A DNA stretch of 64,000 nucleotides from an uncultured Alphaproteobacteria bacterium (GTDB lineage Bacteria > Pseudomonadota > Alphaproteobacteria > RF32 > CAG-239): contig CALXTS010000001.1 in NCBI GenBank assembly GCA_944391465.1, positions 90,441 through 154,440 of the forward strand, given 5' to 3'. Below, piece after piece: positions 17,730-40,022 of the stretch. Position numbers and translations under genes: made by a program. The number at the start of each line of letters is the position of its first letter. Within the stretch, counting starts at the first letter, position 1. Below the pieces are notes generated by a model, which saw only the letters and a list, made by a program, of their open reading frames with translations, was not told where the DNA came from and did not search any database.

Positions 17730-18766
17730 ATAAGAATTTAAGTGAAGATATGTTGGTAACCTTAAATAACGGGATAAAAATGCCTAGGCTTGGTATTGGT
17801 GTAGATAGATTGAAAGGAGATGATGTTGTATCTTCAGTTTATTTAGCAATTAAAGCAGGATATAGAATGATTGATACTGCTTCTTTGTATCGGAATGAAA
17901 AAGAAGTTGGGAAAGCTATACAGATGAGCATGGCAGAAGGAATAGTAAAAAGAGAAGATTTATTTGTTTCTTCAAAAGCACCTTATTTTTTTCCAGGAAG
18001 AAAAGAAACTATTGATGGTTATAAAGAAAGTTGTAGAAATTTAGGACTTGAATATTTGGATTTATATATGTTGCATCATCCGTATAGGGAATATTTTTCA
18101 TGGCAAAAAGAAATAGTTTCTTCTTGGGAAGGATTAGAGGATTTATATTTTTCAGGAGACGTGAAATCTATTGGGGTTAGTAATTTTTCGTGGCCTTATT
18201 TTGATGTGTTGTTTAATTGTTGTAAAATTATGCCTGTTACTAATCAACTAGAGTGTCATCCTCAACATCAGAATATTGAAGCTGTTTTAACTTGTAGAGA
18301 AAGGGGAATTCAAGTTGTTTCATGGTCTCCTCTTAATAGAGGAAGAATCGTTGAAGAGCCTTTAATAAAAAATTTAGCTCTGAAATATAACAAAACGGCA
18401 GCTCAGATTGCATTAAGATGGAATATTCAAAAAGGTAATGCCTTGCTTGTACGTTCAACTAAAGAAGAAAGAATTTTGTCAAATAACGATATTTGGAATT
18501 TTTCTTTATCTTCTGATGATATGGAGCTTTTAAATCAATTAAAACCAGATAATTATGCAAGAGGACATACAAGCGATGTTGTTCCAATAGGGATGATGCC
18601 TTTTAAAAGCTATCAATCTTATTTTTTTTCAAAGGATTATGTAAAGAAGTATAAATTGTTTGGCTTTATTCCCTTCCTTAAAATAAAAAGATACAATCAA
18701 ACAATAAAATGGTTTTTATTTGGAATCCCTATCTTAAAATGTAAGTTTGTAAAGAAAGAAGGTTAA
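17726..18766 (+). CDS. Aldo/keto reductase with a glycan-locus C-terminal tail
   Basis: 346 aa. Residues ~10-285 are an AKR TIM barrel: MPRLGIGVDRL, AGYRMIDTASLYRNEKEVGKAI (catalytic Asp/Tyr), FVSSKAP (Lys), YLDLYMLHHPY (His), GVSNFSWP, and NADP-binding LVRSTKEERILSNN. The last ~40 residues are unlike AKRs: a pair of short repeats KLFGFIPFLKIK and FLFGIPILKCK in a basic/aromatic setting. This tail is shared by many enzymes of bacterial surface-glycan loci and may be a membrane or complex anchor. The enzyme could reduce a keto-sugar precursor or aldehyde used by the locus. Confidence 0.85.
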   Translation: MNKNLSEDMLVTLNNGIKMPRLGIGVDRLKGDDVVSSVYLAIKAGYRMIDTASLYRNEKEVGKAIQMSMAEGIVKREDLFVSSKAPYFFPGRKETIDGYKESCRNLGLEYLDLYMLHHPYREYFSWQKEIVSSWEGLEDLYFSGDVKSIGVSNFSWPYFDVLFNCCKIMPVTNQLECHPQHQNIEAVLTCRERGIQVVSWSPLNRGRIVEEPLIKNLALKYNKTAAQIALRWNIQKGNALLVRSTKEERILSNNDIWNFSLSSDDMELLNQLKPDNYARGHTSDVVPIGMMPFKSYQSYFFSKDYVKKYKLFGFIPFLKIKRYNQTIKWFLFGIPILKCKFVKKEG

Positions 18767-22595: not shown

Positions 22596-23015
22596 ATGCA
22601 TAAATTATATCAGCTTTTGGAAGAGCAAGATGTGCTAAATACGGTTACAGATGCTGTCTGCAAAACACAACAAATGCTTATATTGGTGCAAGGGCAGGTC
22701 GATAATAGTCCTGTTCAACCGGATAATCGTTATTTTAAAATTTTAAACGATTTATGTGATAAGAAAATTAAAATCCGTCGCTATTATTTTGGTTCTAAAG
22801 AAGCCTTTGATGATGAAAAAGTCATGCAATCGGGAATAGAATGGCGATGGGCCGGCAGTATGGAGGCTTATCAGCGTGCCATTATTATCGACGGGAAAAA
22901 GGCATTTTTTAAAATCGGCACGCAATTCGCTGTCAGCGAATATCCGCCGTTGATTGAACTATTGACACAGTATTTGGAAAATTGCTGTTTAGCCGCAGTT
23001 GGCAACTTGGGCTAA
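22596..23015 (+). CDS. Hypothetical protein (139 aa)
   Basis: It begins immediately after the TAA of the 538-aa gene, so the two form an operon. The protein is alpha/beta (MLILVQGQ, IKIRRYYFGSKEAFDDEKV, RAIIIDGKKAFFKIG) and resembles a small PLD-like or NTF2-sized domain only in general outline. The segment RAIIIDGKKAFF recalls the strand after the HKD motif of phospholipase-D-like proteins, but no HxK motif is present. The 3' end overlaps the convergent CoA-transferase gene by 27 bases. Confidence 0.6.
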   Translation: MHKLYQLLEEQDVLNTVTDAVCKTQQMLILVQGQVDNSPVQPDNRYFKILNDLCDKKIKIRRYYFGSKEAFDDEKVMQSGIEWRWAGSMEAYQRAIIIDGKKAFFKIGTQFAVSEYPPLIELLTQYLENCCLAAVGNLG

Positions 23016-23663
23016 TTCTTCCGGAATAATCAGCTCCGCTTCCGTATCTGCAATGATTTCATCCAGAGAAAACAGCGGATTTATTTCTTTTAGGGCTAAG
23101 CCTTCCGGTGTTACCTCAATGACACAACGTTCCGTAATAATTAGATTAACTTCTTTTGATGCTGTAAGGGGAAGGGTGCATTTTTTTAAAATTTTAGGTT
23201 GTCCTTTGGCCGTATGTTCCATGACCACTATAACTTTTTGTGCTCCGACGACCAAATCCATTGCGCCACCCATGCCGGGAGCAAATACTCCGGGAACTAA
23301 CCAATTGGCGAGGCTTCCTTCACTATCAACTTGCAAAGCTCCGAGTACGGTAGCGTCAACATGTCCGCCGCGCATCATTGCAAAGGCGAGTTCCGTATCA
23401 AAAAATGCTGCACCTTCTTGGGTTTCCACATGAACACCACCGGCGTTGGTTATGGCTTTATCAAGAGTTTGGAAATTAGCTTTAGGCCCAACGCCAAGTA
23501 AACCGTTTTCTGAGTGAAAAAGGACATGTAATGACGGAGAAACATAATTGGCTACCTCTGTCGGTAATCCAATTCCGAGAGTAACAACATCGCCTTCTTG
23601 GAATTCTTGTGCGGCACGGCGCGCTATAGTTTCACGAATTTGCTCTTTGGATAATTGTATCAT
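22989..23663 (-). CDS. 3-oxoacid/acetoacetate CoA-transferase, subunit B
   Basis: 224 aa from the ATG at 23663 (AGGA upstream); a longer reading to 23684 overlaps the A-subunit gene. The core RRAAQEFQEGDVVTLGIGLPTEVANYV and the catalytic-glutamate motif SENGLLGVGP are those of family-I CoA-transferase beta subunits, as are GGHVDATVLGALQVD and GGAMDLVVGAQKVIVVMEHT. The enzyme moves CoA between acetoacetate or butyrate and succinate or acetate. It could serve ketone, butyrate or amino-acid catabolism. ScoB/AtoA cannot be separated by eye. Confidence 0.93.
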   Translation of the reverse strand: MIQLSKEQIRETIARRAAQEFQEGDVVTLGIGLPTEVANYVSPSLHVLFHSENGLLGVGPKANFQTLDKAITNAGGVHVETQEGAAFFDTELAFAMMRGGHVDATVLGALQVDSEGSLANWLVPGVFAPGMGGAMDLVVGAQKVIVVMEHTAKGQPKILKKCTLPLTASKEVNLIITERCVIEVTPEGLALKEINPLFSLDEIIADTEAELIIPEELAQVANCG

Positions 23664-23673
23664 ATTTTGATTC

Positions 23674-24315
23674 CTATATTGCAATGTAATCTACAAAAAT
23701 TCCCGGAATGGTTATTTCATCAGGATTTAGGGGTGTTTCAGATAATTCTTCCGCCTCAACGATAACCGTTTGAGCGGCTGTTGCCATGACTTGGTTGAAG
23801 TTGCGGGCAGTTCCGTGAATGAATATGTTGCCGAATTTGTCAACTTTAGAACCATATATCAGAGCGTAGTCCGCCTTCAGAGGTTTTTCATAAAGGTAGG
23901 TCTTACCGTCAATTTCCATGGTTTGCTTACCTTCGGCGACCAGAGTCCCGACACCTGTCGGGGTTAAGACGCCGCCTAATCCAGCTCCCGCCGAACGGAT
24001 ACGCTCTACAAGCGTTCCCAATGGTACCAGCTCGACCTCCAATTCTCCGGCGTTCATTTGTTTTCCAGTTTCGGGGTTTGTGCCGATGTGACCGACTATG
24101 GCTTTGGACACTTGTTTGTTGACAATCAATTTTCCTCTGTCATTTTCCGGTGTCGATGTATCATTTGCGATGATTGTTAAATCAGATGTTTTGTTATTAA
24201 CTATTTCATCAATAATACGGGCAGGGGTTCCACAGCTCAAAAAACCTCCAATCATAACAGAAGCATGATTGGGAATCATTTTTCCGGCTTCGGATACTGA
24301 GATTATTTTTTTCAC
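23674..24315 (-). CDS. 3-oxoacid/acetoacetate CoA-transferase, subunit A
   Basis: 213 aa. IPNHASVMIGGFLSCGTPARIIDEI, the NAGELEVELVPLGTLVERIRSAGAGLGGVLTPTGVGT region and KADYALIYGSKVDKFGNIFIHGTARNFN are alpha-subunit signatures. It is transcribed first and followed 11 bases later by subunit B, the usual A-B order. No degradative genes (thiolase, dehydrogenase) are next to it, so the metabolic role is open. Confidence 0.93.
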   Translation of the reverse strand: MKKIISVSEAGKMIPNHASVMIGGFLSCGTPARIIDEIVNNKTSDLTIIANDTSTPENDRGKLIVNKQVSKAIVGHIGTNPETGKQMNAGELEVELVPLGTLVERIRSAGAGLGGVLTPTGVGTLVAEGKQTMEIDGKTYLYEKPLKADYALIYGSKVDKFGNIFIHGTARNFNQVMATAAQTVIVEAEELSETPLNPDEITIPGIFVDYIAI

Positions 24316-24375
24316 GTATATTTATCCTTTTTAATATTGCTCGCGATAATATACATGAAAAAAGGCGATTTGTCA

Positions 24376-25092
24376 TTATTTTTTTATATCTTGCAGTAAC
24401 GCCTCAACAAAAGGGGGAAAAGTTTCTCCGGCTTTTCCGTAAACATGGCGGTCAAAAAGATAGTTGTTGGCTGTTTGGTCTAATGTAAATTCAATCGTTT
24501 CTGCGCCGTAGTATTTGGCTGTTTGGACAAACCCCGCCGCCGGATAAACAACTCCGGAGGTTCCGATTGATATGAATAAATCACAATGGCGTAACGCATC
24601 ATCAACTTTATCCATATAAAGGAGGTTTTCTCCGAAAAAGACGATGTTGGGTTTCATCATTCCCATTACTTGGCATTGCGGACATATTGTTTGTGTATCT
24701 ACATCTCCCCAAGTTTCAAGAATATGTCCGCAGTTTAAGCATACGGCTTGATTAACTTGTCCGTGGATATGCCAAATATTTTGATTACCGGCTTTTTCAT
24801 GTAGAGTATCTACGTTTTGCGTTACAACGTCTATTTGCGCCGGATATTCTTGTTGGAGTTTTGTTATGGCTAAATGTGCGGCATTTGGTTTGGCTTTTTG
24901 TATTTCTGTTTTCAATTCATTATAAAAATCATGCACAAGAGCCGGATTACGTTGGAAACCTTCAATTGTCGCAACGTCGTCAACTTTGTGATTATTCCAT
25001 AATCCGTTAGAACTGCGAAAGGTAGCTAATCCTGATTCTGCAGATATGCCGGCTCCTGATAAAATTAATATTCTTGAATAGTGTTTGTTCAT
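24376..25092 (-). CDS. cobB: Sir2-family NAD-dependent protein deacylase
   Basis: 238 aa from the ATG at 25092, which overlaps the ROK gene's stop (ATGA). Sir2 motifs are in order: ILSGAGISAESGLATFRSSNGLW, TQNVDTLHEKAGNQNIWHIHG (catalytic His), the zinc cysteines CLNC and CPQC, PNIVFFGE, and the late ISIGTSGVVYPAAGF. The Y/R residues that mark desuccinylases are not obvious, so deacetylase versus desuccinylase specificity is left open. It removes acyl groups from lysine using NAD+. Confidence 0.92.
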   Translation of the reverse strand: MNKHYSRILILSGAGISAESGLATFRSSNGLWNNHKVDDVATIEGFQRNPALVHDFYNELKTEIQKAKPNAAHLAITKLQQEYPAQIDVVTQNVDTLHEKAGNQNIWHIHGQVNQAVCLNCGHILETWGDVDTQTICPQCQVMGMMKPNIVFFGENLLYMDKVDDALRHCDLFISIGTSGVVYPAAGFVQTAKYYGAETIEFTLDQTANNYLFDRHVYGKAGETFPPFVEALLQDIKK

Positions 25093-25997
25093 AGATTTTC
25101 TTTCCATAACCAAGCAGCACCTCTGACACCGGAGCTGTCTCCGTGCATTGCTTTTTTTATATTAATGTTCATTTTGCCGCGATTCCATAATTTTTCTATT
25201 ATCTCGGGGACTTTTTCATAAATTTCTTCCACGCGGGAACAACCACCGCCGACAACGATGATGTCTGGATCAACTACAACAATAATATCTAATAATGCGG
25301 AGGCCAGATGATTGTAAAAATCATTCATGATTTTAGAAGCCAGTTCGTCGCCTTTATTAGCTAATTTGCGAATGTCTCCAACTGTGTGAATCGGGGTTTG
25401 AGCTAATTTGTTGTATTTTTGTAAAACATATTTTCCGGAAACTTGCGTTTCAATACACCCCTTTCTTCCGCATCCGCATTGTGTTGATAACTGTTCTTGA
25501 GAGGCAAAGGGAAGGGGAATGTGCCCCCATTCTCCGGCAATGTTATTGGCTCCTTTGATGATTTGGCGGTTTACGACCAAGCTACCGCCAACGCCGGTTC
25601 CAATAATAATGCAATAGGCAACATTATAATCTTTTGCCGCACCGTCTATTGCTTCTGATAAAGCAAAGCATCGAGCATCATTTTCCATGCGAATTTCTCG
25701 TTGGAGTTCTCTTTCTACATCTTGAGCAAAATTGCGGTTTAAGAACGGTAAATTCGACGGCGTTTCATTAAATGTTTTATCTCGGTTAACAATGCCCGGA
25801 ATGCTGATACCGACAGTTGCCGTTGTTTTGAGTTCTTTTTCAGCCGTAAGTATCATTTTGATGATTGATGATAAAAATTCGGGATAGTTATCCGGCGTGT
25901 TAATGCGTTGGCGGTATAGCTCTTTTCCGGATTCCGAATCCAGAGCTATGATTTCAATCTTGGTTCCGCCGACGTCAATTCCTATATTTATACTCAT
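25089..25997 (-). CDS. ROK-family sugar kinase
   Basis: 302 aa from the ATG at 25997 (GGAG upstream). The ATP site NIGIDVGGTKIEIIAL, the substrate/catalytic region MENDARCFALSEAIDGAAKDYNVAYCIIIGTGVGGSLVVN, the GEWGHIPLP motif and the zinc site CGCGRKGCIE followed by SG are all present. ROK kinases phosphorylate glucose, fructose, GlcNAc or ManNAc. The sequence is closest by eye to NagK/Mak types. It is the first gene of a two-gene operon with the Sir2 deacylase. Confidence 0.9.
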   Translation of the reverse strand: MSINIGIDVGGTKIEIIALDSESGKELYRQRINTPDNYPEFLSSIIKMILTAEKELKTTATVGISIPGIVNRDKTFNETPSNLPFLNRNFAQDVERELQREIRMENDARCFALSEAIDGAAKDYNVAYCIIIGTGVGGSLVVNRQIIKGANNIAGEWGHIPLPFASQEQLSTQCGCGRKGCIETQVSGKYVLQKYNKLAQTPIHTVGDIRKLANKGDELASKIMNDFYNHLASALLDIIVVVDPDIIVVGGGCSRVEEIYEKVPEIIEKLWNRGKMNINIKKAMHGDSSGVRGAAWLWKENL

Positions 25998-26164
25998 TTT
26001 TTTCTCCATATTTTGCTTAATTTAGTCGCTAATATTTAAAATCTGGTTAGTAGTTGTTAAAAATCCTTGATTTTATCTGATATAAGTATTAATTACGACT
26101 CATTGGTTAATTATTATTGCAGAATGAAAGTTCTGCTTATTATATAATCTTAAAAGAGGTTGTT

Positions 26165-28261: not shown

Positions 28262-29182
28262 ATGACAGACAATCCCAATGACAGATTCGTTTTGAGTGAA
28301 GATGAACATAACAAATGGATGGAAGAAGTTGTTCTTCCGATGTTTGCTCACGGTAAAGTATCTGTCGAACAGCCGACTTTTGTTTTATTAACCGGACAAC
28401 CCGGAGCCGGCAAAAGTTTTTCATCAATGGAATATGCCCGCCGTTTTTTGAATGAAGATCCGGTGCGTTTCGGGGCTGATGATTTGAGGGCGGTTTTGCC
28501 TTATGCCGGACGCGCTATGCAAGAAGATGAAGCTCAGTATCCGTTTTTGACTAAAAAAGATTCCGGTATCGGAAGAGAGAAGTTGGTCGATTATGCGATT
28601 GAAAATCAATTGAATATTTTGGTTGAGAGTATTTTGACAAATCCCGAAGATTATAAAATGGGTACTTTGATGAAAGTTAAAAATGCCGGATATAGAATTG
28701 AATGTTTGGCTCTCGGTGTGCATCGGAATGTGAGTGAAGCCGGTATGTTTATGCGTTATGAAGAACAAAAAAATATTTCCGGTTTTGGTTTTGCTCCGAC
28801 TTATGAGGTTCATAATAAAGCGTACGAATTAATGCCGGATATTGTCGCTAATATGTATGAATATGGTATTGCAGACAAAGTCAGTGTCTATAACCGCAAG
28901 TTTGATTGTTTTTATGATAGTGATAAGGATAAAGGTGGTTCTTTAGCTATTCGGAATGCGATTGTTCGTTCTCGTAACAGTTCTTTGAATTTCAGAGAAA
29001 TGTCAGATGTTGTTTCAAAATGGGAGAGTGTTCTTGACTATATGCGCAAACGTAATGCTTCTCCTGAAGAATTTAAGACGGTTAATATGATGTATGATAC
29101 CTTTAAGAAGAGTACGGGAATTATGTTTTCTCCGGAATTTCAAAAGTTTTCAAAATTCGGTAAGTCATCTAAAGGGGAATAA
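28262..29182 (+). CDS. Zeta-toxin-family P-loop kinase
   Basis: 306 aa. Walker A LLTGQPGAGKSFSSM (residues ~42-55) is followed by the acidic/arginine motif FGADDLRAVLP and a second segment VESILTNPEDY with VHRNVSEAGMFMRYEEQ, the pattern of zeta toxins and related kinases. Zeta toxins phosphorylate UDP-GlcNAc. A chromosomal member may instead be a housekeeping or phage-defence kinase. It is preceded by an 81-aa helical ORF. The ~100 C-terminal residues are not assigned. Confidence 0.78.
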   Translation: MTDNPNDRFVLSEDEHNKWMEEVVLPMFAHGKVSVEQPTFVLLTGQPGAGKSFSSMEYARRFLNEDPVRFGADDLRAVLPYAGRAMQEDEAQYPFLTKKDSGIGREKLVDYAIENQLNILVESILTNPEDYKMGTLMKVKNAGYRIECLALGVHRNVSEAGMFMRYEEQKNISGFGFAPTYEVHNKAYELMPDIVANMYEYGIADKVSVYNRKFDCFYDSDKDKGGSLAIRNAIVRSRNSSLNFREMSDVVSKWESVLDYMRKRNASPEEFKTVNMMYDTFKKSTGIMFSPEFQKFSKFGKSSKGE

Positions 29183-32041: not shown

Positions 32042-32069
32042 TGTATTCATAATATATATTATGCGACAA
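32042..32069 (-). other. dif: Chromosomal dif site (XerCD recombination), left junction of the prophage
   Basis: Read on the minus strand: XerC-type arm TTGTCGCATAA, six-base centre TATATA, XerD-type arm TTATGAATACA. E. coli dif has GGTGCGCATAA, TGTATA and TTATGTTAAAT, so the layout and key bases agree. Host genes on both sides converge on this point. The XerD arm lies on the host side and the XerC arm on the prophage side. Confidence 0.85.
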
Positions 32070-32072
32070 ATT
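32053..32072. repeat. Left attachment repeat (20 bp, identical to 39987-40006)
   Basis: A 20-bp perfect direct repeat with the copy 7,934 bp to the right. It contains the six-base exchange region and the XerC arm plus three flanking bases. Confidence 0.85.
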
Positions 32073-32141
32073 AAGAAAGATTTTATTGAACCTCAAAAAA
32101 ATGTTACTGCCCTTTTGTTTTAACAGATTTAGGAGTGTGCC

Positions 32142-32573
32142 ATGTTAGATAAAACGGACGAAGTAAAAAAAATTTCTGGGGCTGTGGATAACTTAATAAA
32201 AATCATAAACAATCAACAATCCCAAATTAAAGAACTTGAGGACAAACTGCGGGAAAAAGATGCCCACAACTGGGATAATTACGGTTTTAGAGTTGTCAAG
32301 GCAATTTTACGATATATCGCGCAGGGAATCGAAGAACAAGAGGCTATACGTCTCGCCTATGATGATTTTGGCGGCAAAATGTCTATGCGTACAATACTTT
32401 GCATTTGGCAATATTCCCACGCCTCAAAAGCCGGATTAATTTTATACGGGCGCGCCTATTGTGCAAAAAAAATGCGCCTCGCAGGCTTTAAAGCCTACGA
32501 AATAGCGCAAACTTTAGGGTTGTCGATAACAACCGTGCAAAAACTGTTAAAGCAGTGTTGTATTAGCGATTAG
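32142..32573 (+). CDS. Prophage coiled-coil / helix-turn-helix protein (143 aa)
   Basis: An AGGAG site precedes the ATG. Residues 1-45 form a coiled coil (VKKISGAVDNLIKIINNQQSQIKELEDKL). The C-terminus GFKAYEIAQTLGLSITTVQKLLKQ is a clear helix-turn-helix. It is one of only two plus-strand genes in the element and lies at its left edge. In the excised circle its start would overlap the end of the regulator gene at 39621, so the two would be one operon. Probably a transcriptional or replication regulator. Confidence 0.75.
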   Translation: MLDKTDEVKKISGAVDNLIKIINNQQSQIKELEDKLREKDAHNWDNYGFRVVKAILRYIAQGIEEQEAIRLAYDDFGGKMSMRTILCIWQYSHASKAGLILYGRAYCAKKMRLAGFKAYEIAQTLGLSITTVQKLLKQCCISD

Positions 32574-32724
32574 CTTTAGCATTTTCGGCAATGTACATCC
32601 CGATAAACGACAAAACAACGCCGATTATAGCGGTTTCGACTGCTCGGCCGTTTGAAATGTATGTTGCGGCCGCGGTACAAGCTAAGCCGGTTGCTAATAT
32701 TTTGTTTTTATTGTCACCCCTCAT
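32563..32724 (-). CDS. Small prophage membrane protein (53 aa)
   Basis: Two hydrophobic segments (ILATGLACTAAATYIS and ETAIIGVVLSFIGMYIA). The pattern NK-small/aromatic-G-x-A with a late IIxVxxxxIG resembles the 46-aa product at 32907-33047, suggesting an ancient duplication. It overlaps the convergent plus-strand gene by 11 bases. The ribosome site is weak and a hairpin lies just upstream. Possibly a holin or virion membrane protein. Confidence 0.5.
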   Translation of the reverse strand: MRGDNKNKILATGLACTAAATYISNGRAVETAIIGVVLSFIGMYIAENAKANR

Positions 32725-32728
32725 CTAA

Positions 32729-32760
32729 AATTGCCGGTATTTTAAACCGGCAATTCTTTT
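32729..32760. terminator. Hairpin, probable terminator near the left end of the prophage
   Basis: A ten-base-pair stem AATTGCCGGT / ACCGGCAATT with a 7-base loop is followed by CTTTT on the plus strand. It could stop the plus-strand transcript of the 143-aa gene or attenuate the minus-strand late operon. Confidence 0.65.
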
Positions 32761-32767
32761 AAGTCAA

Positions 32768-32905
32768 CTAATTAAAAATATCAAGACATTTGTCTATAAA
32801 GTCTTTTTTACGGCGTACAGCGCGTTTTTTCTTTTTCGGAGTCATAGACACCTTTTTAACGCATTTTGCTTTGTATGCCGTTTTTTTAGCTATTTTTGCC
32901 GCCAT
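32768..32905 (-). CDS. Very basic small prophage protein (45 aa)
   Basis: Lys/Arg make up over a third of the residues (KIAKKTAYKAKCVKK, TPKKKKRAVRRKK). An AGGGGG site precedes the ATG. The size and charge suggest a DNA-condensing virion protein, as in several small tailless phages, or a nucleic-acid-binding regulator. No homologue is recognised. Confidence 0.65.
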   Translation of the reverse strand: MAAKIAKKTAYKAKCVKKVSMTPKKKKRAVRRKKDFIDKCLDIFN

Positions 32906-32906
32906 T

Positions 32907-33047
32907 TTAACCCCCTATAAGTTGTTGTAAAATGTTAATGATAGCTTCTGGGGCAGACATAGCACCGGTAAGAACCCCAGCAATTGCAGTTGCTACACCA
33001 GCCCAAAAGCATTTATTTTTTAACTTCTCAATCGTTTTTTGCCACAT
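32907..33047 (-). CDS. Small prophage membrane protein, holin-like (46 aa)
   Basis: It starts MWQKTIEKLKNKCFW and has one long hydrophobic segment AGVATAIAGVLTGAM. Phage proteins with a short basic N-terminus, the K-x-K-x-FW motif and a helix followed by P-E are frequent near lysis genes. The longer reading to 33095 lacks a ribosome site; AGGATC lies before the ATG at 33047. It overlaps the next upstream gene by 28 bases. Confidence 0.6.
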   Translation of the reverse strand: MWQKTIEKLKNKCFWAGVATAIAGVLTGAMSAPEAIINILQQLIGG

Positions 33048-33178
33048 AGTTCTAGATCCTGTAAAGTTTCGATGTCCCTTTCGATAAGCGCGCACCGTTT
33101 ATCGAATTTGCTGTATAATAATAAAACCGCAATAAGTGTCGGCGAATTGCCTAAGAGCTGTATGAATAGGTCTGGCAT
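33020..33178 (-). CDS. Small prophage protein with N-terminal TM and charged tail (52 aa)
   Basis: GAGGTAGGA precedes the ATG. The residues NSPTLIAVLLLYSKF form a membrane segment and RCALIERDIETLQDLE a charged helix. The topology (one N-terminal TM, helical cytoplasmic or periplasmic part) is like small lysis accessory or spanin-like proteins. It overlaps the downstream 46-aa gene. Confidence 0.6.
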   Translation of the reverse strand: MPDLFIQLLGNSPTLIAVLLLYSKFDKRCALIERDIETLQDLELCGKKRLRS

Positions 33179-33182
33179 AGTC

Positions 33183-33368
33183 CTACCTCACTCTCTTGAA
33201 AATATAGAGCGCGGCAATACCGGCCGCCACCATAAGCGTTTTATCCCACCAGCTAAAACTTGGTGTTTTGTCCGTTGTTTGAGCAATTTTATCATCGGTT
33301 TCTTTTTCATAAATAATACCGCTAACTAACCCGCTCAACCCTGATAGAACTATCCATATAATAGGCAT
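33183..33368 (-). CDS. Small prophage membrane protein (61 aa)
   Basis: AGGGGGT ribosome site. Two hydrophobic helices (PIIWIVLSGLSGLVSGIIY and LMVAAGIAALYIF) are separated by a charged loop with SFSWWDKT. The hairpin topology is that of a class II holin or a virion membrane protein. It is next to the peptidoglycan hydrolase, which supports a lysis role. Confidence 0.65.
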   Translation of the reverse strand: MPIIWIVLSGLSGLVSGIIYEKETDDKIAQTTDKTPSFSWWDKTLMVAAGIAALYIFKRVR

Positions 33369-33380
33369 TTCGACTACCCC

Positions 33381-33863
33381 CTAAGCATAAAACGTATGAT
33401 TGCCGATACTAGCAACCACTTGCATTTTGTTAACCCATGACGGCGCTTTAGATAGACTACCAAGCGCCAAATAATTAGTTGCTCCGTTGGTGATGTCCGG
33501 GAGCGCGCCGGCATAAGCTAGGCCGGCCAGATTCTTGGCAACCGCAAAACTATCGTCGGAATCGTTCACAGCTAACATAGGCGCATAATTCGGGTCCGAC
33601 TTGTTCCAAACGCTGAATTGGCTTTTTTTAGTGCATACTTCTTTGGGAGTTGCACCCCACCAGCTGCCGGCTTTAACCCTATTCATGATTACATTTAAAA
33701 CTGCCTGCATTCCCTTTATTCCTTCTCCGCGTGCCTCTCCCCAAGCTGTTCGAGCCATTATATCAATTTCATGTTCATCGTTTGTTGCAATCATTTTGCC
33801 GCCTCTCAATAAAAAATAAATACCGGCAAAAGCTACAAGACCTGCGCCGATAGGATTTTCCAT
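33381..33863 (-). CDS. Prophage cell-wall hydrolase, SleB/Hydrolase_2 family
   Basis: 160 aa from the ATG at 33863 (GGAGGATAGT upstream; a longer reading to 33893 overlaps the next gene). An N-terminal TM (GAGLVAFAGIYFLLRGG) is followed by DIMARTAWGEARGEGIKGMQAVLNVIMNRV, with the catalytic Glu in GEARGE, and QFSVWNK. SleB-like lytic transglycosylases cut the glycan strand. The anchor suggests a virion-associated enzyme for entry or an endolysin held in the membrane. Confidence 0.88.
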   Translation of the reverse strand: MENPIGAGLVAFAGIYFLLRGGKMIATNDEHEIDIMARTAWGEARGEGIKGMQAVLNVIMNRVKAGSWWGATPKEVCTKKSQFSVWNKSDPNYAPMLAVNDSDDSFAVAKNLAGLAYAGALPDITNGATNYLALGSLSKAPSWVNKMQVVASIGNHTFYA

Positions 33864-33864
33864 A

Positions 33865-34185
33865 CTATCCTCCAAGCTCTTGAATACGAACACGCCAAGC
33901 AGCTCTTTGTTTAATTAATTCCGCATAATCTTCTGCAGTGGCTACCCCTTCTGAAATTTTAATAATAGCATAATCTGATTCTGATAACTTAGATTTTAAT
34001 TTAATTATTTCCTCTGCAGCTACAAGTTCTGCAGGTTTTTCTGGTGCATAGCCTTCCTGATAAAATTTCCCATTATATGAAAAATCCAAATCAACAAAAT
34101 CTAAATTTTTTTTTTCAGCTTCTATTTGATTTATCACTTTATATTCACGAGTTGTTTTATCAATTAATTCAGCTCTTAATCTCAT
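33865..34185 (-). CDS. Tail-fibre-chaperone-like protein of the prophage
   Basis: 106 aa. The end LKSKLSESDYAIIKISEGVATAEDYAELIKQRAAWRVRIQEL resembles the C-terminal helix pair of phage tail assembly chaperones (SDYxxxK, then AWRxxI). Such a protein in a genome without tail genes suggests that it assists folding of a receptor-binding spike. The base composition is more AT-rich than the other phage genes. Confidence 0.6.
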   Translation of the reverse strand: MRLRAELIDKTTREYKVINQIEAEKKNLDFVDLDFSYNGKFYQEGYAPEKPAELVAAEEIIKLKSKLSESDYAIIKISEGVATAEDYAELIKQRAAWRVRIQELGG

Positions 34186-34489
34186 TTCTTTCTCCTACAA
34201 AAAAACATACAACTCCTGATCCTGCTCCTACCAAATTTTTAAAAGTTATCACATCTCCTTTAAACACACGAATTGGAGTTTGAATATATGACCCACAAGA
34301 AAATGAGTACATATATATTATCATTGCTCTATTACCATTTATATATGTCTCAAAATGCATAACATTATTATATGTATGATCATTGAATGTCATAAATCCA
34401 TTTTCTTCACAAACATATCCTGAAGAAATTTGTTTTATGTTACTAAAATCAGGAGCTTTTTCTAAATAAGGATTGTTTAAAATTGTCAT
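34169..34489 (-). CDS. Putative receptor-binding/spike domain protein (106 aa)
   Basis: Soluble and beta-rich, with GYVCEENGFMTFNDHTYNNVMHFETYINGNRAMIIYMYSFSCG and VITFKNLVGAGSGVVCFFVG, like the distal beta-sandwich of phage fibres. It overlaps the chaperone-like gene by 17 bases and abuts the 209-aa beta-rich protein. It is AT-rich compared with the flanking genes, consistent with exchange of a host-range module. No exact family is recognised. Confidence 0.55.
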   Translation of the reverse strand: MTILNNPYLEKAPDFSNIKQISSGYVCEENGFMTFNDHTYNNVMHFETYINGNRAMIIYMYSFSCGSYIQTPIRVFKGDVITFKNLVGAGSGVVCFFVGERNEIKS

Positions 34490-35118
34490 TAGTCAAAACT
34501 CCCGACTGCTAAAGTGTCGCCGTCTGTACCGTAAACCGTTAAATCGGTTGCTAAGGCATATTCGAACGTGCCTTGAGGTTGTAATTGTAAGCCGTCAGTA
34601 CCTGTCCCGCCGATGTACATAACGTTGCCGCCGGTGTTTTGGATGACAATTTGCTGTGCGGCCGGAACGGTTACGCTACCGTCTGCGATTGTTAAGGTTG
34701 CCGCGCTAAAGCCGTTATATTGCGCCGGCTCTGTGCGTACGTTGCCGGTAACCGATAAGCGGCTGTCGTCAAAATAACCAATTCCCGCGCCTACTTTTAA
34801 GGTAATACCTTGATTTTCCGGCGCAAAAATTTGCGCGTACGGAATGACGGAGTTAAATTTAATACCTAAGCCGCTTTCAAAGTTGGTGCGGCCGGTATTA
34901 GTTGACCATGCGACATCAAATGTACTCGTTGCCGACAAGCACCGAAAATAGTTAAACGGATTGTTAAGCGTATAAACTTCGCCAGCCTTTAATGTGATTT
35001 CGAATTCACGATATGACGATTGCTGTTGCCCGTTGTTAATCGGCAACATGGTTACACTGCCGTTTAATGTATCCGTTAGGCGTTCGATTTTTTCGATAAC
35101 CTCGTTAATATCTGCCAT
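34489..35118 (-). CDS. Beta-rich prophage structural protein (vertex/spike candidate)
   Basis: 209 aa. A short N-terminal amphipathic helix (INEVIEKIERLTDTL) is followed by ~170 residues of beta-prone sequence (YREFEITLKAGEVYTLN, LGIKFNSVIPYAQIF, TLTIADGSVTVPAAQQIVIQ, GTFEYALATDLTVYG). The length and composition fit a jelly-roll penton or spike base in a tailless phage. It sits directly upstream of the receptor-like genes. Confidence 0.6.
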   Translation of the reverse strand: MADINEVIEKIERLTDTLNGSVTMLPINNGQQQSSYREFEITLKAGEVYTLNNPFNYFRCLSATSTFDVAWSTNTGRTNFESGLGIKFNSVIPYAQIFAPENQGITLKVGAGIGYFDDSRLSVTGNVRTEPAQYNGFSAATLTIADGSVTVPAAQQIVIQNTGGNVMYIGGTGTDGLQLQPQGTFEYALATDLTVYGTDGDTLAVGSFD

Positions 35119-35481
35119 TTATATACCTTTCAGAATTTTAGGAGCTAAAATAATGGCCAGCAGTCCCGCGCCAATCATTAATACCGGCTTTAACTGCTGG
35201 ATAATGCCGGTACTCTCGGAATATGCCGATTGATAACCTTTAGCCACCTGTTCAATTGATTTGCCAGCTAAGTTTGAATTACCGGTAGTCGCGGCATTAG
35301 CCATTGACTGAACGGCCTCTAAAAAGCCGCCTAAATCCTCACCGGCTAAACCGTAAATAGTTTGGTCGCCTGCTGATTGAAAGTTACCGGTTGCCAAATC
35401 GCCAAGGGTTTGTGATACCGTGGTTGTGTAGTTGGTTGTTGTACTGCTCGAATGTGATTTAGAGCCGCCAAATAAACCCAT
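35119..35481 (-). CDS. Single-TM prophage protein (120 aa)
   Basis: A Ser/Thr-rich N-terminus (SKSHSSSTTTNYTTT), a Gly/Ala-rich middle and a C-terminal TM (LMIGAGLLAIILAPKILKG). GAGGGGGTTATA upstream. It is one of three consecutive genes with a polar N-terminus and a C-terminal TM, as expected for proteins of an internal virion membrane. Confidence 0.7.
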   Translation of the reverse strand: MGLFGGSKSHSSSTTTNYTTTVSQTLGDLATGNFQSAGDQTIYGLAGEDLGGFLEAVQSMANAATTGNSNLAGKSIEQVAKGYQSAYSESTGIIQQLKPVLMIGAGLLAIILAPKILKGI

Positions 35482-35699
35482 TATAACCCCCTCTTAATCA
35501 GCTTTAACGCAATAAAGGCAAAGCCGGCAAGGGCTAGCGTTTTAACCAGCCCTAAACCTTGTTTGCCTGATGTGTTGGATATAAAATTGTTGCCGATTTT
35601 GCCGCCGGTTGCGGTTGATGTCGCCGAACTGCCAAAGTCATATGACATTTCGCCCGATGCTTTGCCAATTAATCCGGCGTTGCCGTCACTACCTGCCAT
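35481..35699 (-). CDS. Single-TM prophage protein (72 aa)
   Basis: A Gly/Ser/Ala-rich N-terminus and a C-terminal TM (VKTLALAGFAFIALKLIKR). AGGGGGATAAA upstream. It shares its architecture with the two flanking genes and overlaps the next start by one base. Confidence 0.7.
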   Translation of the reverse strand: MAGSDGNAGLIGKASGEMSYDFGSSATSTATGGKIGNNFISNTSGKQGLGLVKTLALAGFAFIALKLIKRGL

Positions 35700-35709
35700 T
35701 TTATCCCCC

Positions 35710-35982
35710 TTACATCAATTTTTTAACACCAAGCCCAACGGCTAACAGTCCAAGCGTACCGCCGATAATCCACAAAATCGAAGTGGTTGAGATTTCAACA
35801 TCACCGATTTTGATAACGCCGTCATCGCGGGTTTGTTCGGCCTGTTGCTTAAGAACATCATTAGCGCCCTTAAGATATGCGGCCTCATCGCTTGAACTAT
35901 TGCCGGTAAAGGCTTGGTAAACGTCACCTGCGCCTTTTCCTAAATCAGTTGCCGCGCCAATTAAATCGTTATACCAAGCCAT
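35710..35982 (-). CDS. Single-TM prophage protein (90 aa)
   Basis: An N-terminal helical soluble part (LKGANDVLKQQAEQTRDD) is followed by a C-terminal TM (ILWIIGGTLGLLAVGLGV). AGGGGGT upstream. It lies directly after the capsid-protein candidate, so it may be a virion membrane protein linking capsid and bilayer. Confidence 0.7.
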   Translation of the reverse strand: MAWYNDLIGAATDLGKGAGDVYQAFTGNSSSDEAAYLKGANDVLKQQAEQTRDDGVIKIGDVEISTTSILWIIGGTLGLLAVGLGVKKLM

Positions 35983-35992
35983 ATTTTACCCC

Positions 35993-36925
35993 CTATGCTG
36001 TGCGGATAGTGTCAAGAGCCAGTAAACCGTTAGAGTTTACCAAATTTTGAACGCTTGCCGGGCAATTATGAACCTTAACAACCGGCATATCATAAGAACC
36101 GGATGTCGGCGCAGTGGTGAATGTTGTGCGGACGGACAATTCAGACGTTACGTCTTGAACCATTAAGCCGCTGTTAGCCGTGCCGTCAGTGTAGGAGTGA
36201 ACAAAAGCGCCGTCAATAACGCCGTAGCCATCGAGGTTGTTCATTGCGTTGTTAGCCGACAAGCTGATTGCGCGCGCAACGTTAACGTTGTTAACCAAGG
36301 TTTCACCCTGAGAGATTACACCGCCGCCATTGTAGGCAATAGCCAACAAAAACAAATCGTTGGCGTTTTTCGGCAAAGTGTTAACTTGCGATTGTCCAAC
36401 GGCCGCAAATGACTGGACGTTGTTATTAAACTGAACATAGCTATCGTTCCAGTCAGCCTCAACCTGTTTGCGGATAGAATACAAGTTAACATCGGTAACG
36501 CCGGTAATGGTTGCGTTCGAATAGACTTGAACAACCAGCGAGCTGATTTTTTTGTTCGGGTCAGTACTACCGGATTTACCACAACGCCACGCGAACTCAT
36601 CGCGCATAATGCCTGCTTGGTACAGTAAGCGTCCGATGTTTAAAGAAAATACGTTAGTCAAAGTTGTTTGATTAACGCGAGTGCCTAAGTATGTGAACAA
36701 GTCGATAAGCTGGGTTAACTTTACATCAACCGCGTTCATACCATTAATCAGCACAACAACGCGGCTGATAGCGGCTTTACAAGCGGCCAAAGTTGCCGGC
36801 GCGCCGCTGTTGGTGAATTCGATAATCAAGTCGCGGATTACGTCATAGCAGTTAACGTTAAACGGAATCATTGAACTAGCCGTTACGGCTTTGGATTCCT
36901 CAAAGTTTCTAATAGGTGTCTGCAT
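35993..36925 (-). CDS. Putative major capsid protein of the prophage
   Basis: 310 aa, no signal or TM, the longest protein of the element. It is rich in Asn/Thr/Val beta strands with conserved turns (NSGAPATLAAC, GSTDPNKKISSLVVQVYSN, NDLFLLAIAYNGGGV, GSYDMPVVKVHNCPA) and has a long helical N-terminal part. The position between the packaging ATPase and a set of single-TM virion-like proteins is that of the double-jelly-roll capsid gene in PM2-like phages. The fold is inferred; no sequence match to PM2 P2 was verified. Confidence 0.65.
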   Translation of the reverse strand: MQTPIRNFEESKAVTASSMIPFNVNCYDVIRDLIIEFTNSGAPATLAACKAAISRVVVLINGMNAVDVKLTQLIDLFTYLGTRVNQTTLTNVFSLNIGRLLYQAGIMRDEFAWRCGKSGSTDPNKKISSLVVQVYSNATITGVTDVNLYSIRKQVEADWNDSYVQFNNNVQSFAAVGQSQVNTLPKNANDLFLLAIAYNGGGVISQGETLVNNVNVARAISLSANNAMNNLDGYGVIDGAFVHSYTDGTANSGLMVQDVTSELSVRTTFTTAPTSGSYDMPVVKVHNCPASVQNLVNSNGLLALDTIRTA

Positions 36926-36945
36926 TTGCTAAAACTCCCAAAAAA

Positions 36946-37032
36946 TTATTTAGACGACAATTTGGTTGACGCGTAGTTATAAATTACGATGCCGGCAACA
37001 ACTGCCAAAGCCATTTTTACCATTGATTTCAT
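36946..37032 (-). CDS. Tiny prophage membrane peptide (28 aa)
   Basis: It is one TM helix (MVKMALAVVAGIVIY) with a basic start and Ser/Lys end. AAGG lies 9 bases before the ATG. It leads the capsid operon. Such mini-proteins are common in membrane-containing phages, but translation of this one is not proven. Confidence 0.5.
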   Translation of the reverse strand: MKSMVKMALAVVAGIVIYNYASTKLSSK

Positions 37033-37108
37033 TGTGTTTACCTTTCAGTTATGGAAGAAGAATATTACGGGTAAACCTTATGGGAGTTTTTTGTTTTTTG
37101 CAAAAAAA

Positions 37109-37134
37109 CAAAAACGGCGGAAATCCGCCGTTTT
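37109..37134. terminator. Terminator between ATPase gene and capsid operon
   Basis: AAAACGGCGG / CCGCCGTTTT perfect stem with an AAAT loop (TTT rich on the minus strand, downstream of the ATPase stop at 37161). It divides the minus-strand genes into an early block (rep to ATPase) and a late structural block. Confidence 0.75.
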
Positions 37135-37138
37135 GTTC

Positions 37139-37155
37139 TACGTAACGTACGTAAC
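37139..37155. promoter_or_regulatory. Candidate operator: TACGTAACGT repeat
   Basis: Overlapping palindromic ACGT blocks (TACGTAACGT, GTACGTAAC) lie between the ATPase stop and the terminator. The same ten bases occur at 39595-39604, just upstream of the prophage repressor-like gene, next to the perfect palindrome GTTACGTAAC. Shared sites suggest binding by one regulator. Confidence 0.45.
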
Positions 37156-37160
37156 TTTTT

Positions 37161-37835
37161 TTAGAGGTGTGTTAAAGTTTGGCCGCCTGATTTGTAGATA
37201 TATTGATAATTTCCCAAATTCCGCAGGGTTTCACGGTATTCCTTGCCTAAAGCCCTGGCCGCAACATCAATATCGCTCGGCTCGGCGTGCCTAAACCAAT
37301 ACACCCCGGAGCAATTACCCCTGAAGCAAATATCGACTTGGTGCGGCCGCTGACTGATACCGATTAGGTTAATGCCATAATGACGGCCGCGGCGGCAAAG
37401 GTAAGCAAAACCGTTTTGTGGGTCTCGCTGGGTGATTCCGGACGGAAAAGCAATATCTAACTCGTCAACAAATAGCGTTATTTGCCCTTGGTGCGTGCCG
37501 GCTTTATATCCGCCTTGCAGTTCAAGTAAAAAATAACATAATTCGTTTAGCTCTTTGATTTCATTGCCAAAAGTCGGAATAAAATCAAATCTAAACCCCT
37601 TGCAAAAATCCCTTTTAAAGGCAATTTTAAGGCGGTCAATACTGCTAAAGACTCCGGTAATACCGGCGGAGGTTGCAAGCTCCGCCAGCGGGTCAAAATA
37701 AATCAATCGGCTAAGGTTAGCGGTTAATTCTCGGGCTTTGGTTGTTTTTCCGCAGCCTGACGCCCCAAAAATCCCCACCCTTTGCGCTTGCCTGATGATT
37801 GCGCCGCTTTTTGTTTGATTTTTTCGTTTAACCAT
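37161..37835 (-). CDS. Prophage packaging-type ATPase (P9-like / FtsK-HerA superfamily candidate)
   Basis: 224 aa. Walker A GIFGASGCGKTTKA (P-loop at residues 24-31), Walker B ITLFVDELD (~119-127), then ISQRPHQVD as the probable sensor/arginine region. Size and motif spacing fit genome-packaging ATPases of tectivirus/PM2-type phages. A Zot-like ATPase of filamentous phages is the alternative. No TM is seen. The first 112 bases overlap the preceding gene in another frame. Confidence 0.75.
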   Translation of the reverse strand: MVKRKNQTKSGAIIRQAQRVGIFGASGCGKTTKARELTANLSRLIYFDPLAELATSAGITGVFSSIDRLKIAFKRDFCKGFRFDFIPTFGNEIKELNELCYFLLELQGGYKAGTHQGQITLFVDELDIAFPSGITQRDPQNGFAYLCRRGRHYGINLIGISQRPHQVDICFRGNCSGVYWFRHAEPSDIDVAARALGKEYRETLRNLGNYQYIYKSGGQTLTHL

Positions 37836-38278
37836 ATCTTTGCTTTCTGTAAGTAGTTAATGCCCGTCCAATTTAGCAATATTGCGTTTGTTTCAGTGGT
37901 TGCCCATAGGCTCACAATCGCCAAATCGCCGAATAAATGCGCATTTTTGTCGATTAGGAACCGCAAAAAACGGTATTTGTTTGCCAACTCATAGATTTTT
38001 TGCGCGGCAATAGCTTGGCCGCGTTCATGGATGTTACCGAAAGCATCGGCGGCCACTTCCGGGGACTTTAGAAAAGTTAAAAAATCGTTAAAACATTTAT
38101 TAAATTCATCTTGCGTATAAAGCCCGCTATTCGTCATCGTCGGCGAGTAATTCGGCAAACCAGCCTCGGCCACTTGTTCCGGTTGTTCGTTGAGTTCCGG
38201 CACGGGCGGCAGGTTGTCCGTCTGTCCGTCCGTCAGTTGTGGCTCTGTCAATTCCGGTGTCGTTTCTTGGTTGTACAT
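37724..38278 (-). CDS. Hypothetical prophage protein (184 aa)
   Basis: An acidic, Pro/Glu-rich N-terminus (residues 1-50) followed by a helical domain (FNKCFNDFLTFLKSPEVAADAF, RFLRFLIDKNAHLFGDLAIVSLWATTETNAILLNW) with one moderately hydrophobic segment, and a basic C-terminus. AAAGGAG upstream. It overlaps the zinc-ribbon gene before it by 152 bases and the ATPase after it by 112 bases. The function is unknown; it may be a replication or packaging partner. Confidence 0.65.
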   Translation of the reverse strand: MYNQETTPELTEPQLTDGQTDNLPPVPELNEQPEQVAEAGLPNYSPTMTNSGLYTQDEFNKCFNDFLTFLKSPEVAADAFGNIHERGQAIAAQKIYELANKYRFLRFLIDKNAHLFGDLAIVSLWATTETNAILLNWTGINYLQKAKIWLNEKIKQKAAQSSGKRKGWGFLGRQAAEKQPKPEN

Positions 38279-38510
38279 CGTTTTTATTCTCCTTTGGTTT
38301 GATTGAGGTTATAACGCCTATTTTGTCGGTTGCTACGCTTTGTCCGGCCATTAGTAACGGCAAATATCTTTTAGACATTTTTCCGTTAAATTTAACCACG
38401 CATAGATTGTCGCAATACATGTACAGCTTGTTATTTTTGTCAACGCGCAAATCCTGCAATGGCTCGCCGCACACCGGGCAAGTTATGCGGCCGATTGTGT
38501 TATTTTTCAT
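38127..38510 (-). CDS. Zinc-ribbon prophage protein (127 aa)
   Basis: Residues 8-45 carry ITCPVCGEPL and MYCDNLC, four cysteines in a zinc-ribbon arrangement. The rest is polar and low complexity (TTDGRTDGQPAARAGTQRTTG). AGGGGGA before the ATG. The 3' 152 bases are also read in another frame by the next gene, so the low-complexity tail may be a by-product of that overlap. Possibly a single-stranded-DNA-binding or topoisomerase-like accessory. Confidence 0.65.
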   Translation of the reverse strand: MKNNTIGRITCPVCGEPLQDLRVDKNNKLYMYCDNLCVVKFNGKMSKRYLPLLMAGQSVATDKIGVITSIKPKENKNDVQPRNDTGIDRATTDGRTDGQPAARAGTQRTTGTSGRGWFAELLADDDE

Positions 38511-38524
38511 TATCGTCCCCCTGC

Positions 38525-38689
38525 TTATTGAAAGAATACGGCAAAAACTCGAATTTCATAGGTGTTACGGCGTTTTTTTTTGATTTTTTCCCATTGTTGC
38601 CGTACTTCCTCGGAAAATTCGCCGACAAAATCGTATATTTTGGTGTTGCTACGCTTGCCGCGCAACTCGGTAATCTTAACTTTATACAT
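38525..38689 (-). CDS. Small prophage protein (54 aa)
   Basis: It is charged and mixed alpha/beta: YKVKITELRGKRSNTKIYDF, a helix EEVRQQWEKIKKKRR and a hydrophobic end EIRVFAVFF. It overlaps the preceding 41-aa gene by 8 bases. No family is recognised. Confidence 0.5.
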   Translation of the reverse strand: MYKVKITELRGKRSNTKIYDFVGEFSEEVRQQWEKIKKKRRNTYEIRVFAVFFQ

Positions 38690-38807
38690 TTTTATTTTTC
38701 CTTTGCAAAAAATCTATGGTTTCCGCCAGTGCGCGGCGGTCTTGTTCGGTCAAAACACAATAATAATGCTCTAAAATTGCTAACAAAAACCGCGTGTAAA
38801 CTTCCAT
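38682..38807 (-). CDS. Small prophage protein (41 aa)
   Basis: A two-helix peptide (YTRFLLAILEHYYCVL and EQDRRALAETIDFLQRK). The ATG overlaps the stop of the replication gene (TAATG), the common sign of translational coupling. Function unknown. Confidence 0.5.
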   Translation of the reverse strand: MEVYTRFLLAILEHYYCVLTEQDRRALAETIDFLQRKNKNV

Positions 38808-39490
38808 TATACCACCTCTACGCTTTTTAATACGTTTGAGTTTGCCGGAAGTATCGCGAGCGGCGCGCCAAATTCGCTCTTAATATCCGCTACGAGTTCC
38901 GGAAGTCTTAGATTAATATTTTTTTCGCCTAAACGGCTAATTGGACGGATTGCTAAACCGGTATTTGTTTTTATAACTGTTGCCCACAAATAAACATCTT
39001 GATAATGATTAGCTATAAATTCGACTATTTGACGGTCTTTTGTTTCAATTTCCGGTTTTTCCTCAATAACCTCTTTTGATTTTTCGCGCGTGCGCGTTTT
39101 TAAATTCTTAGAATTTAAATATACTTCTTTTAAATCTACTTCTTGTGTCGCATTTTCGCGACTACCTAGTTGCATTTTTGAGACTACCCTAGTCGCATTT
39201 TCGCGACTAGGTAACGGATTAAAATCGATATAATAATAGTTAGCGCTAAGCCCTTTATTTACATCATTTTGGCGGCGGATATAACCTAGTTGCTCCAATT
39301 TGGAAAGGCTTCGAAATACTGAAGCACGGTTTAAGCCGGCCTTGGCCGCGATAGTGTTAGCAAATACATGACAAACCCTATCGGCGCGCGTATAGCTCGC
39401 CAGTGTTCCGAACACCTTGTAATCGGCAGCGCTTAAATTTTCGCTGAAGATGCTAACCGGCATCATTATAAAAGGATAATCATTTGCCAT
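38807..39490 (-). CDS. Prophage replication initiator-like winged-helix protein
   Basis: 227 aa. The N-terminal ~90 residues form a winged helix with the LSAADYKVFGTLASYTR opening and AAKAGLNRASVFRSLSKLEQLGYIRR, as in HTH_36-type plasmid and phage replication initiators. The middle is a charged linker, and the C-terminus (VADIKSEFGAPLAIL) is short. No rolling-circle HUH motif or primase motif is seen. It is the first gene of the minus-strand transcript, divergent from the repressor-like gene. AGGTGGTG upstream. Confidence 0.7.
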   Translation of the reverse strand: MANDYPFIMMPVSIFSENLSAADYKVFGTLASYTRADRVCHVFANTIAAKAGLNRASVFRSLSKLEQLGYIRRQNDVNKGLSANYYYIDFNPLPSRENATRVVSKMQLGSRENATQEVDLKEVYLNSKNLKTRTREKSKEVIEEKPEIETKDRQIVEFIANHYQDVYLWATVIKTNTGLAIRPISRLGEKNINLRLPELVADIKSEFGAPLAILPANSNVLKSVEVV

Positions 39491-39620
39491 TTACACCACC
39501 TTTAACAACTACTTACCTAATATAGTAAGTATAAGCTATACATTAAATAGTTAAAAAATAGTTGTCAATATTATGTTTTTGTGATACCTTAGGTTACGTA
39601 ACGTTAAAAGAGGTTGTAAA
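39491..39620. promoter_or_regulatory. Divergent promoter/operator region of the prophage
   Basis: This region separates the rep gene (minus) and the repressor-like gene (plus). A TTGACA box on the minus strand (39563-39568) points to a rep promoter. Inverted repeats TACTTAC / GTAAGTA (39510-39531) and GTATA / TATAC (39529-39541) overlap its start region. GTTACGTAAC (39593-39602) lies just before the repressor-like gene. The pattern is that of a lysogeny switch. Confidence 0.6.
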
Positions 39621-40022
39621 ATGAATGAATTTGATATGTATGCTAAGTCGGCTATTGCGCGTTGTAATCTTAAGAGTTACTACGGGTTAGCTAAAGAATT
39701 AGGCATCAGCCAGCCGGCATTATATAGGTTAAAAAAAGGGCAAAATCTCCCCTCATGTAATACTATGATAAAAATTTCAAAATTAGCGGGGATACCGGAA
39801 GAAAAAGCCCTGCTCGACTTAGCGGCGTGGGCAAACTCAGACAAGCCGGAAGTTCAAAAAATATGGTTGCGAATTGCTAAAATGATAGGTTGCGTTGCGC
39901 TGTTTTTAGTGTTTCATAGTTTTGATGTAAACGCTTGTATTTTCACGAAAAAAGCAGAAAGTTTTAACACTTTTGACTATGCAACTTATATATTATGCGA
40001 CAAATTTGTTTATAGGTTGTAA
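39621..40022 (+). CDS. Prophage repressor-like protein (XRE-type HTH plus TM; DUF3693-like)
   Basis: 133 aa. The HTH is YYGLAKELGISQPALYRLKKGQNLPSCNTMIKISKLAGI, followed by EEKALLDLAAWANSDKPEVQKIWLRIAKMI and a hydrophobic segment (GCVALFLVFHSF). This layout matches DUF3693-like proteins of filamentous phages. The last residues are read through the right attachment repeat and host DNA. In the excised circle the frame would continue from residue 129 for 25 residues to a stop that overlaps the start of the 32142 gene. It probably controls lysogeny. Confidence 0.75.
   Translation: MNEFDMYAKSAIARCNLKSYYGLAKELGISQPALYRLKKGQNLPSCNTMIKISKLAGIPEEKALLDLAAWANSDKPEVQKIWLRIAKMIGCVALFLVFHSFDVNACIFTKKAESFNTFDYATYILCDKFVYRL
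39987..40006. repeat. Right attachment repeat (20 bp)
   Basis: It is identical to 32053-32072. The XerC arm and centre are intact, but the adjacent XerD-side sequence (39976-39986, read on the minus strand AGTTGCATAGT) does not match an XerD arm. So the right junction is a half-site, as in Xer-dependent integrating elements. Confidence 0.8.

Follow-up and report, generated by a model that had tools for sequence, protein, structure and literature searches.

Within the 64,000-nucleotide stretch of DNA that we analysed (the window), a chromosomal element, 7,934 bp long when measured from one dif to the other, lies on the minus strand of a gut alphaproteobacterium at 32042-40004, with a dif site at either end and with empty sites in sister genomes. 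Its minus strand encodes, in order, a replication initiator (Rep), two small ORFs, a CxxC protein, a protein at the position of ORF-h, a packaging ATPase, a P7 candidate, a capsid protein, three single-transmembrane (TM) proteins and a spike candidate, followed by two uncharacterized ORFs, a SleB-type lysin and a series of small hydrophobic genes; at each end stands a regulator encoded on the plus strand. This gene order is common to six relatives, the elements of the lineage measure 7.66-8.31 kb, and family matches revealed no integrase or recombinase among the ORFs of the element. Elsewhere in the window, a higher-GC block on the reverse strand (22989-26009), where GC skew drops, appears by eye to encode CoA-transferase subunits, a sirtuin and a ROK-type kinase.

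An XRE/cI-like regulator on the plus strand (39621-40022; HTH_3 at 1.5e-5, phrog_638 at 2e-16) crosses the att site with its 3' end. The genes that follow are all on the minus strand: Rep (38807-39490), whose family matches make it an HTH_36, O/DnaD-like initiator; a small conserved ORF (38525-38689) seen in one relative; the CxxC protein, a probable regulator (38127-38510), conserved in eight elements and matching a NO16 ORF at 2.4e-4; a probable assembly factor at the ORF-h position (37724-38278), directly upstream of the ATPase in eight elements; and the packaging ATPase itself (37161-37835), of the HerA/FtsK superfamily. By tblastn the ATPase matched Jorvik P9 (2e-9), the NO16 ATPase (8e-7) and also phage YY, and its profile reached HerA structures at 7e-11; its gene is upstream of the capsid gene, as in Vinavirales. 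Between the two, at 36946-37032 on the minus strand, a 28-aa TM peptide, MKSMVKMALAVVAGIVIYNYASTKLSSK, is by position a candidate P7.

A beta-rich capsid candidate of 310 aa had been proposed in the first-pass annotation, and we found it in place on the minus strand at 35993-36925. Alone, this sequence reached Pfam P2_N only at an E-value of 0.024 and gave no tblastn match among phage records; neither phmmer against PDB sequences nor a first, shallow profile matched any PDB chain, and deeper capsid alignments were therefore needed. Neither the capsid by itself nor alignment A1 detected a close relative among viral contigs, and a comparison of A1 by hhalign with the individual capsids of Jorvik and NO16 was not informative; bridging relatives came from the same host family and from other Alphaproteobacteria. 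A profile of 11 alphaproteobacterial relatives, with known phages left out, matched over nearly the full length both 9t9v (5.8e-21), a double jelly roll capsid protein whose aligned chain carries the NO16 sequence, and PM2 P2 (2vvf; 1.1e-11), and Pfam P2_N and P2_C were matched by 7/11 and 6/11 members of the family, respectively. A separate Python-built profile, from whose training set NO16, Jorvik and YY were absent, gave E-values of 8e-23 for the NO16 capsid, 3.5e-6 for Jorvik P2 and 1.7e-5 for the capsid of YY, which are relative only because the database was small. A PDB search with alignment A2 was discarded as evidence for the 9t9v match, which is circular because A2 contains NO16, and alignment A4 was built without NO16; a G003 match (L008/L015) was rejected as a NifU-like false positive.

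Structure prediction, the check that had been suggested for the capsid, led to PM2 P2 as well. The AlphaFold model, of modest confidence (pLDDT 60, pTM 0.59), retrieved double-jelly-roll capsids almost exclusively in Foldseek, and a BFVD search returned general double-jelly-roll relatives only; in VIA-align, PM2 P2 (2vvf) came top, with Z 11.6 and rmsd 5.9 for 217 residues across residues 2-287, followed by PRD1, STIV and phiCjT23. By its profiles and predicted fold, 35993-36925 is a P2-family double-jelly-roll capsid gene. The ssDNA phages of the Finnlakeviridae, FLiP and phiCjT23, also combine a double-jelly-roll capsid with a membrane at a similar genome size, and the model resembles both phiCjT23 (Z 9.3) and FLiP (Z 8.1); that the element is such a phage is nevertheless highly improbable, as the sequence profiles match PM2 P2 and NO16 but no capsid of FLiP, the O/DnaD-like HTH protein Rep has no rolling-circle endonuclease match, and the packaging ATPase is related to those of dsDNA Vinavirales.

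Immediately downstream of the capsid gene, and likewise on the minus strand, are the genes of three single-TM proteins of 90 aa (35710-35982), 72 aa (35481-35699) and 120 aa (35119-35481), at the positions of P3, P8 and P10; the third is conserved in nine elements. From the capsid gene through these three to 34489-35118 the gaps are +10, +10, -1 and 0 bases, a packing as expected of one operon. In agreement with the first-pass annotation, each protein has one hydrophobic segment near the C-terminus, with 19-residue Kyte-Doolittle maxima of 2.02, 1.88 and 2.14, respectively, and then a basic tail; their description as ending in Lys/Arg or Met was right about Met for the first protein only and about Lys/Arg for none, the ends being KKLM, KRGL and LKGI. 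Order and topology recur in the relatives, with identities of 48-73% for the small TM proteins and 75-81% for the capsid, and Jorvik P3, P8 and P10 have the same layout of one C-terminal TM; this recurrence in relatives and in Jorvik indicates that the arrangement of capsid and three TM genes is not due to chance. The Jorvik proteins, of 102, 75 and 179 aa, also follow the capsid gene and each have a basic last residue. No sequence match of the three proteins to known phages, including P3, P8 and P10 of PM2 or Jorvik, was detected, so these names are assignments by place. By analogy with PM2 and Jorvik, the three proteins would have a role in the virion membrane, and the presence of an inner lipid membrane is itself inferred from homology with these two phages.

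The spike or penton candidate (34489-35118, minus strand) is predicted to be a P1-like protein of two beta domains (model pLDDT 84) and is conserved at the place of P1 downstream of the capsid gene. Residues 129-209 of its model resemble PM2 P1 (2vve) with Z 8.6, a score equalled by cupin-like folds, and residues 35-114 resemble an HCIV-1 capsid protein (6h9c) with Z 8.3. Further along the minus strand come a 106-aa ORF (34169-34489), for which a family search gave no significant match, a second, conserved 106-aa ORF (33865-34185), and the lysin, a SleB-type cell wall hydrolase (33381-33893; Pfam Hydrolase_2 1.1e-18, phrog endolysin 1.6e-20). Three small hydrophobic ORFs (32907-33368), conserved in relatives, are by their place probable holin/lysis or virion-membrane genes, and two small ORFs (32563-32905) encode a Lys-rich 45-aa protein and a 53-aa TM protein. 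On the plus strand, an HTH regulator (32142-32573) with weak HTH matches, conserved in seven elements, is TR_Z1-like by position, standing at the place of P15, which is the TR_Z1 position in clade A.

Both ends of the element are 29-bp sites with an XerC arm and centre in common. The att at the Rep end (39976-40004, minus strand), TTTGTCGCATAA TATATA AGTTGCATAGT, combines a host-type XerC arm and centre with a degenerate XerD arm; the att at the other end (32042-32070, minus strand), TTTGTCGCATAA TATATA TTATGAATACA, alone has a proper XerD arm, and there the full dif is restored. Scanning the whole genome with a 17-bp dif probe at <=2 mismatches gave exactly two sites, both at the ends of the element, and a reversed control gave none; across the genus, 30/35 genomes contain a site with at most one mismatch to the dif pattern, and in almost every case just one such site. 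An empty dif with the same neighbours is present in several sister genomes (L022, L023, L031, L037, L039 and L040), and in L037 it lies between a homologue of the 40399 gene and PmbA. In the window, TldD and PmbA genes separate dif from a zeta-toxin-like P-loop kinase (28262-29182, by eye), homologues of which flank the empty dif in many sister genomes.

Other elements of the lineage lie at dif too. Those of L012, L013 and L014 are each flanked by two dif sites, with the window's att type in L012 and L013 (good XerC arm, degenerate XerD arm); L010 (4757-12448) is the mirror image, inverted at dif with the XerD arm kept and the XerC arm degenerate, and L011 (4144-12379) is probably inverted likewise, its second site being weaker. 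The restored dif is at the TR_Z1 end in the window and in L010-L013. On the L014 contig, 76 bp beyond the second att (17877-17952) repeat the start of the element, indicating a circle or tandem copy in that sample. As in XerCD-dependent integrative elements, there is a dif-like attP and no integrase gene, and the host has XerC and XerD homologues, which are encoded elsewhere in the genome and score just under curated cut-offs; the layout is consistent with integration driven by the host, after which a single dif would remain functional. Earlier studies had suggested dif use by NO16 (PMC9966536), by some tailless prophages of Vibrio (PMC11630473) and by Jorvik (PMC10589892), and the TLC-phi satellite phage has an att with a good XerC arm and a degenerate XerD arm (PMC4246890), the same type as in the window.

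This resemblance to TLC-phi (PMC4246890), the three consecutive small TM proteins and a weak Pfam Zot match of 0.16 could be read as signs of a filamentous-phage-like dif element with a Zot/gpI-type ATPase and the TM proteins as its coat proteins. We give this reading almost no credence: a filamentous phage should have neither a capsid of the P2 family nor a spike nor a SleB lysin, and among phages the ATPase is closest to those of Jorvik, YY and NO16. Both the filamentous and the Finnlakeviridae readings were rejected in favour of a PM2-type phage.

The frame of the XRE-like gene at the Rep end (39621-40022) reads through att, as do those of its homologues in L010, L011 and L014; a search of the host family with this regulator found no elements beyond these four. 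With att inside the regulator gene in four elements, integration would alter the C-terminus of the protein: predicted lengths in lysogen and circle are 133 and 153 aa for the window, 129 and 157 aa for L010, and 139 and 160 aa for L014, while for L011 they are 124 and 119 aa, with the crossover point uncertain. Composition-matched random sequence would stay open that far with chances of 0.11, 0.27, 0.23 and 0.12 in the four elements, and their product of ~8e-4 overstates the evidence because the four are related. The layout of a regulator over att resembles that of mycobacteriophage BPs, for which integration-dependent immunity is described (PMC4557955). By analogy, integration through host Xer might itself set the lysogeny decision in a tailless membrane phage, although we regard this as a rather doubtful possibility.

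To place the element, we compared capsid and ATPase trees that included Mestraviridae (Jorvik, YY), Asemoviridae (NO16, VruC), Corticoviridae (PM2, Cr39582) and four Autolykiviridae, and that were made without Parnassusviridae and HGV sequences. In the capsid and ATPase trees all eight gut rows cluster together (support 100/100 and 99/99), separate in both from Jorvik + YY, from NO16 and VruC, from PM2 and Cr39582 and from the four Autolykiviridae. Jorvik and YY pair with support of 99/99 in the capsid tree and 99/96 in the ATPase tree, both on long branches, and neither tree groups the window lineage with them; we therefore did not file the gut lineage under Mestraviridae, a family ratified in 2025 (PMC12451628) whose name was first proposed for all of clade A. 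As judged from these sequences, the gut lineage does appear to fall outside the ratified Vinavirales families sampled. The suggestion that the family may be new may thus hold as a matter of rank, within that sampling, and is not supported as to kind, given the profile matches to PM2 P2 and NO16 and an architecture equal to that published for gut clade A (PMC9502842). Within the gut group, the window is placed differently by the capsid and ATPase trees. The genome is a mosaic across 35993-39490: the capsid is 75-81% identical to those of L009-L011 and the ATPase only ~50%, whereas the Rep of the window resembles those of L012, L013 and L052 and not those of L009-L011. More distant proviruses in other alphaproteobacterial families (L070, L071 and L072) have their capsid, ATPase, TM and spike genes arranged as in the window, with a capsid 19% identical to that of the window.

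The closest published counterparts are the clade A and HGV prophages of gut Alphaproteobacteria, assigned to Vinavirales (Yutin et al. 2022, PMC9502842), to which we likened the element by their published order of ORF-h, ATPase, P7, capsid, membrane proteins and spike; a SleB lysin replacing P5 and small lysis genes are also common to them, and an HTH gene stands at the P15 place, where they have a distinct regulator. The same-family hosts of the relatives are mostly Alphaproteobacteria MAGs, several from deer gut. Unlike clade A and HGV, the window element showed no GNAT-like gene in the stretch from its membrane-protein genes to its spike, and it sits at dif, whereas integration in those prophages was called unclear except for HGV-2 (PMC9502842). 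Jorvik, a Rhodobacter phage of the Mestraviridae, is alike in its alphaproteobacterial host, capsid cassette, one-TM P3, P8 and P10, dif-resembling attP and lack of an integrase (PMC10589892), but is larger (8,762 bp), carries its packaging genes on the other strand and has M15 and Slt lysins, a GNAT gene and an att in an operon; its virion contains a membrane, as is predicted for the window element. NO16, a Vibrio phage of the Asemoviridae for which dif-like sites were reported (PMC9966536), has the closest known capsid by profile (5.8e-21) but a genome of 10.6 kb and a gammaproteobacterial host, and lies with PM2 in both trees. PM2 itself (Pseudoalteromonas; Corticoviridae) has a P2-family capsid and the order ORF h, P9, P7, P2, P3, P8, P1, and differs in its P12 replication initiator, P5 lysin, genome of 10.1 kb and marine gammaproteobacterial host; its P4 was not found in the window element.

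Taken together, the element is very probably a complete phage of the PM2 type (Vinavirales), temperate, without a tail and probably functional, that would have been integrated by Xer at dif. Gut viruses of this kind have been found almost only as prophages in surveys (PMC9502842), as would suit a phage that has become defective or been domesticated and has ceased to make particles; this is unlikely, however, as the core genes all have uninterrupted frames, keep their order and are conserved in relatives, the att site at each end is intact, and the contig of a relative, L014, shows a circle or tandem copy. In a functional PM2-type phage, capsid trimers would build an icosahedral shell around a lipid vesicle holding circular dsDNA, with the proteins at the P3, P8 and P10 positions and the 28-aa P7-like peptide in the membrane or linking it to the shell, and with the P1-like protein forming penton spikes; packaging would be driven by the ATPase, and host XerC/XerD would integrate the circular genome into the chromosomal dif, restoring one full dif.

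The kind of element is already known, and the dif integration site and overlapping regulator gene are added detail. The window provides a bounded gut vinavirus that appears intact, with precisely located ends, an empty site to compare it with and a likely integration route. Its 7.9 kb are fewer than the 8,762 bp of Jorvik, whose authors in 2023 called its genome the smallest among the membrane-containing dsDNA phages then known (PMC10589892). Its location at dif bears on the integration route of gut members, which the 2022 survey called unclear, HGV-2 excepted (PMC9502842); and if the regulator overlap matters, it would constitute a simple genetic switch tied to the chromosome-dimer resolution system of the host.
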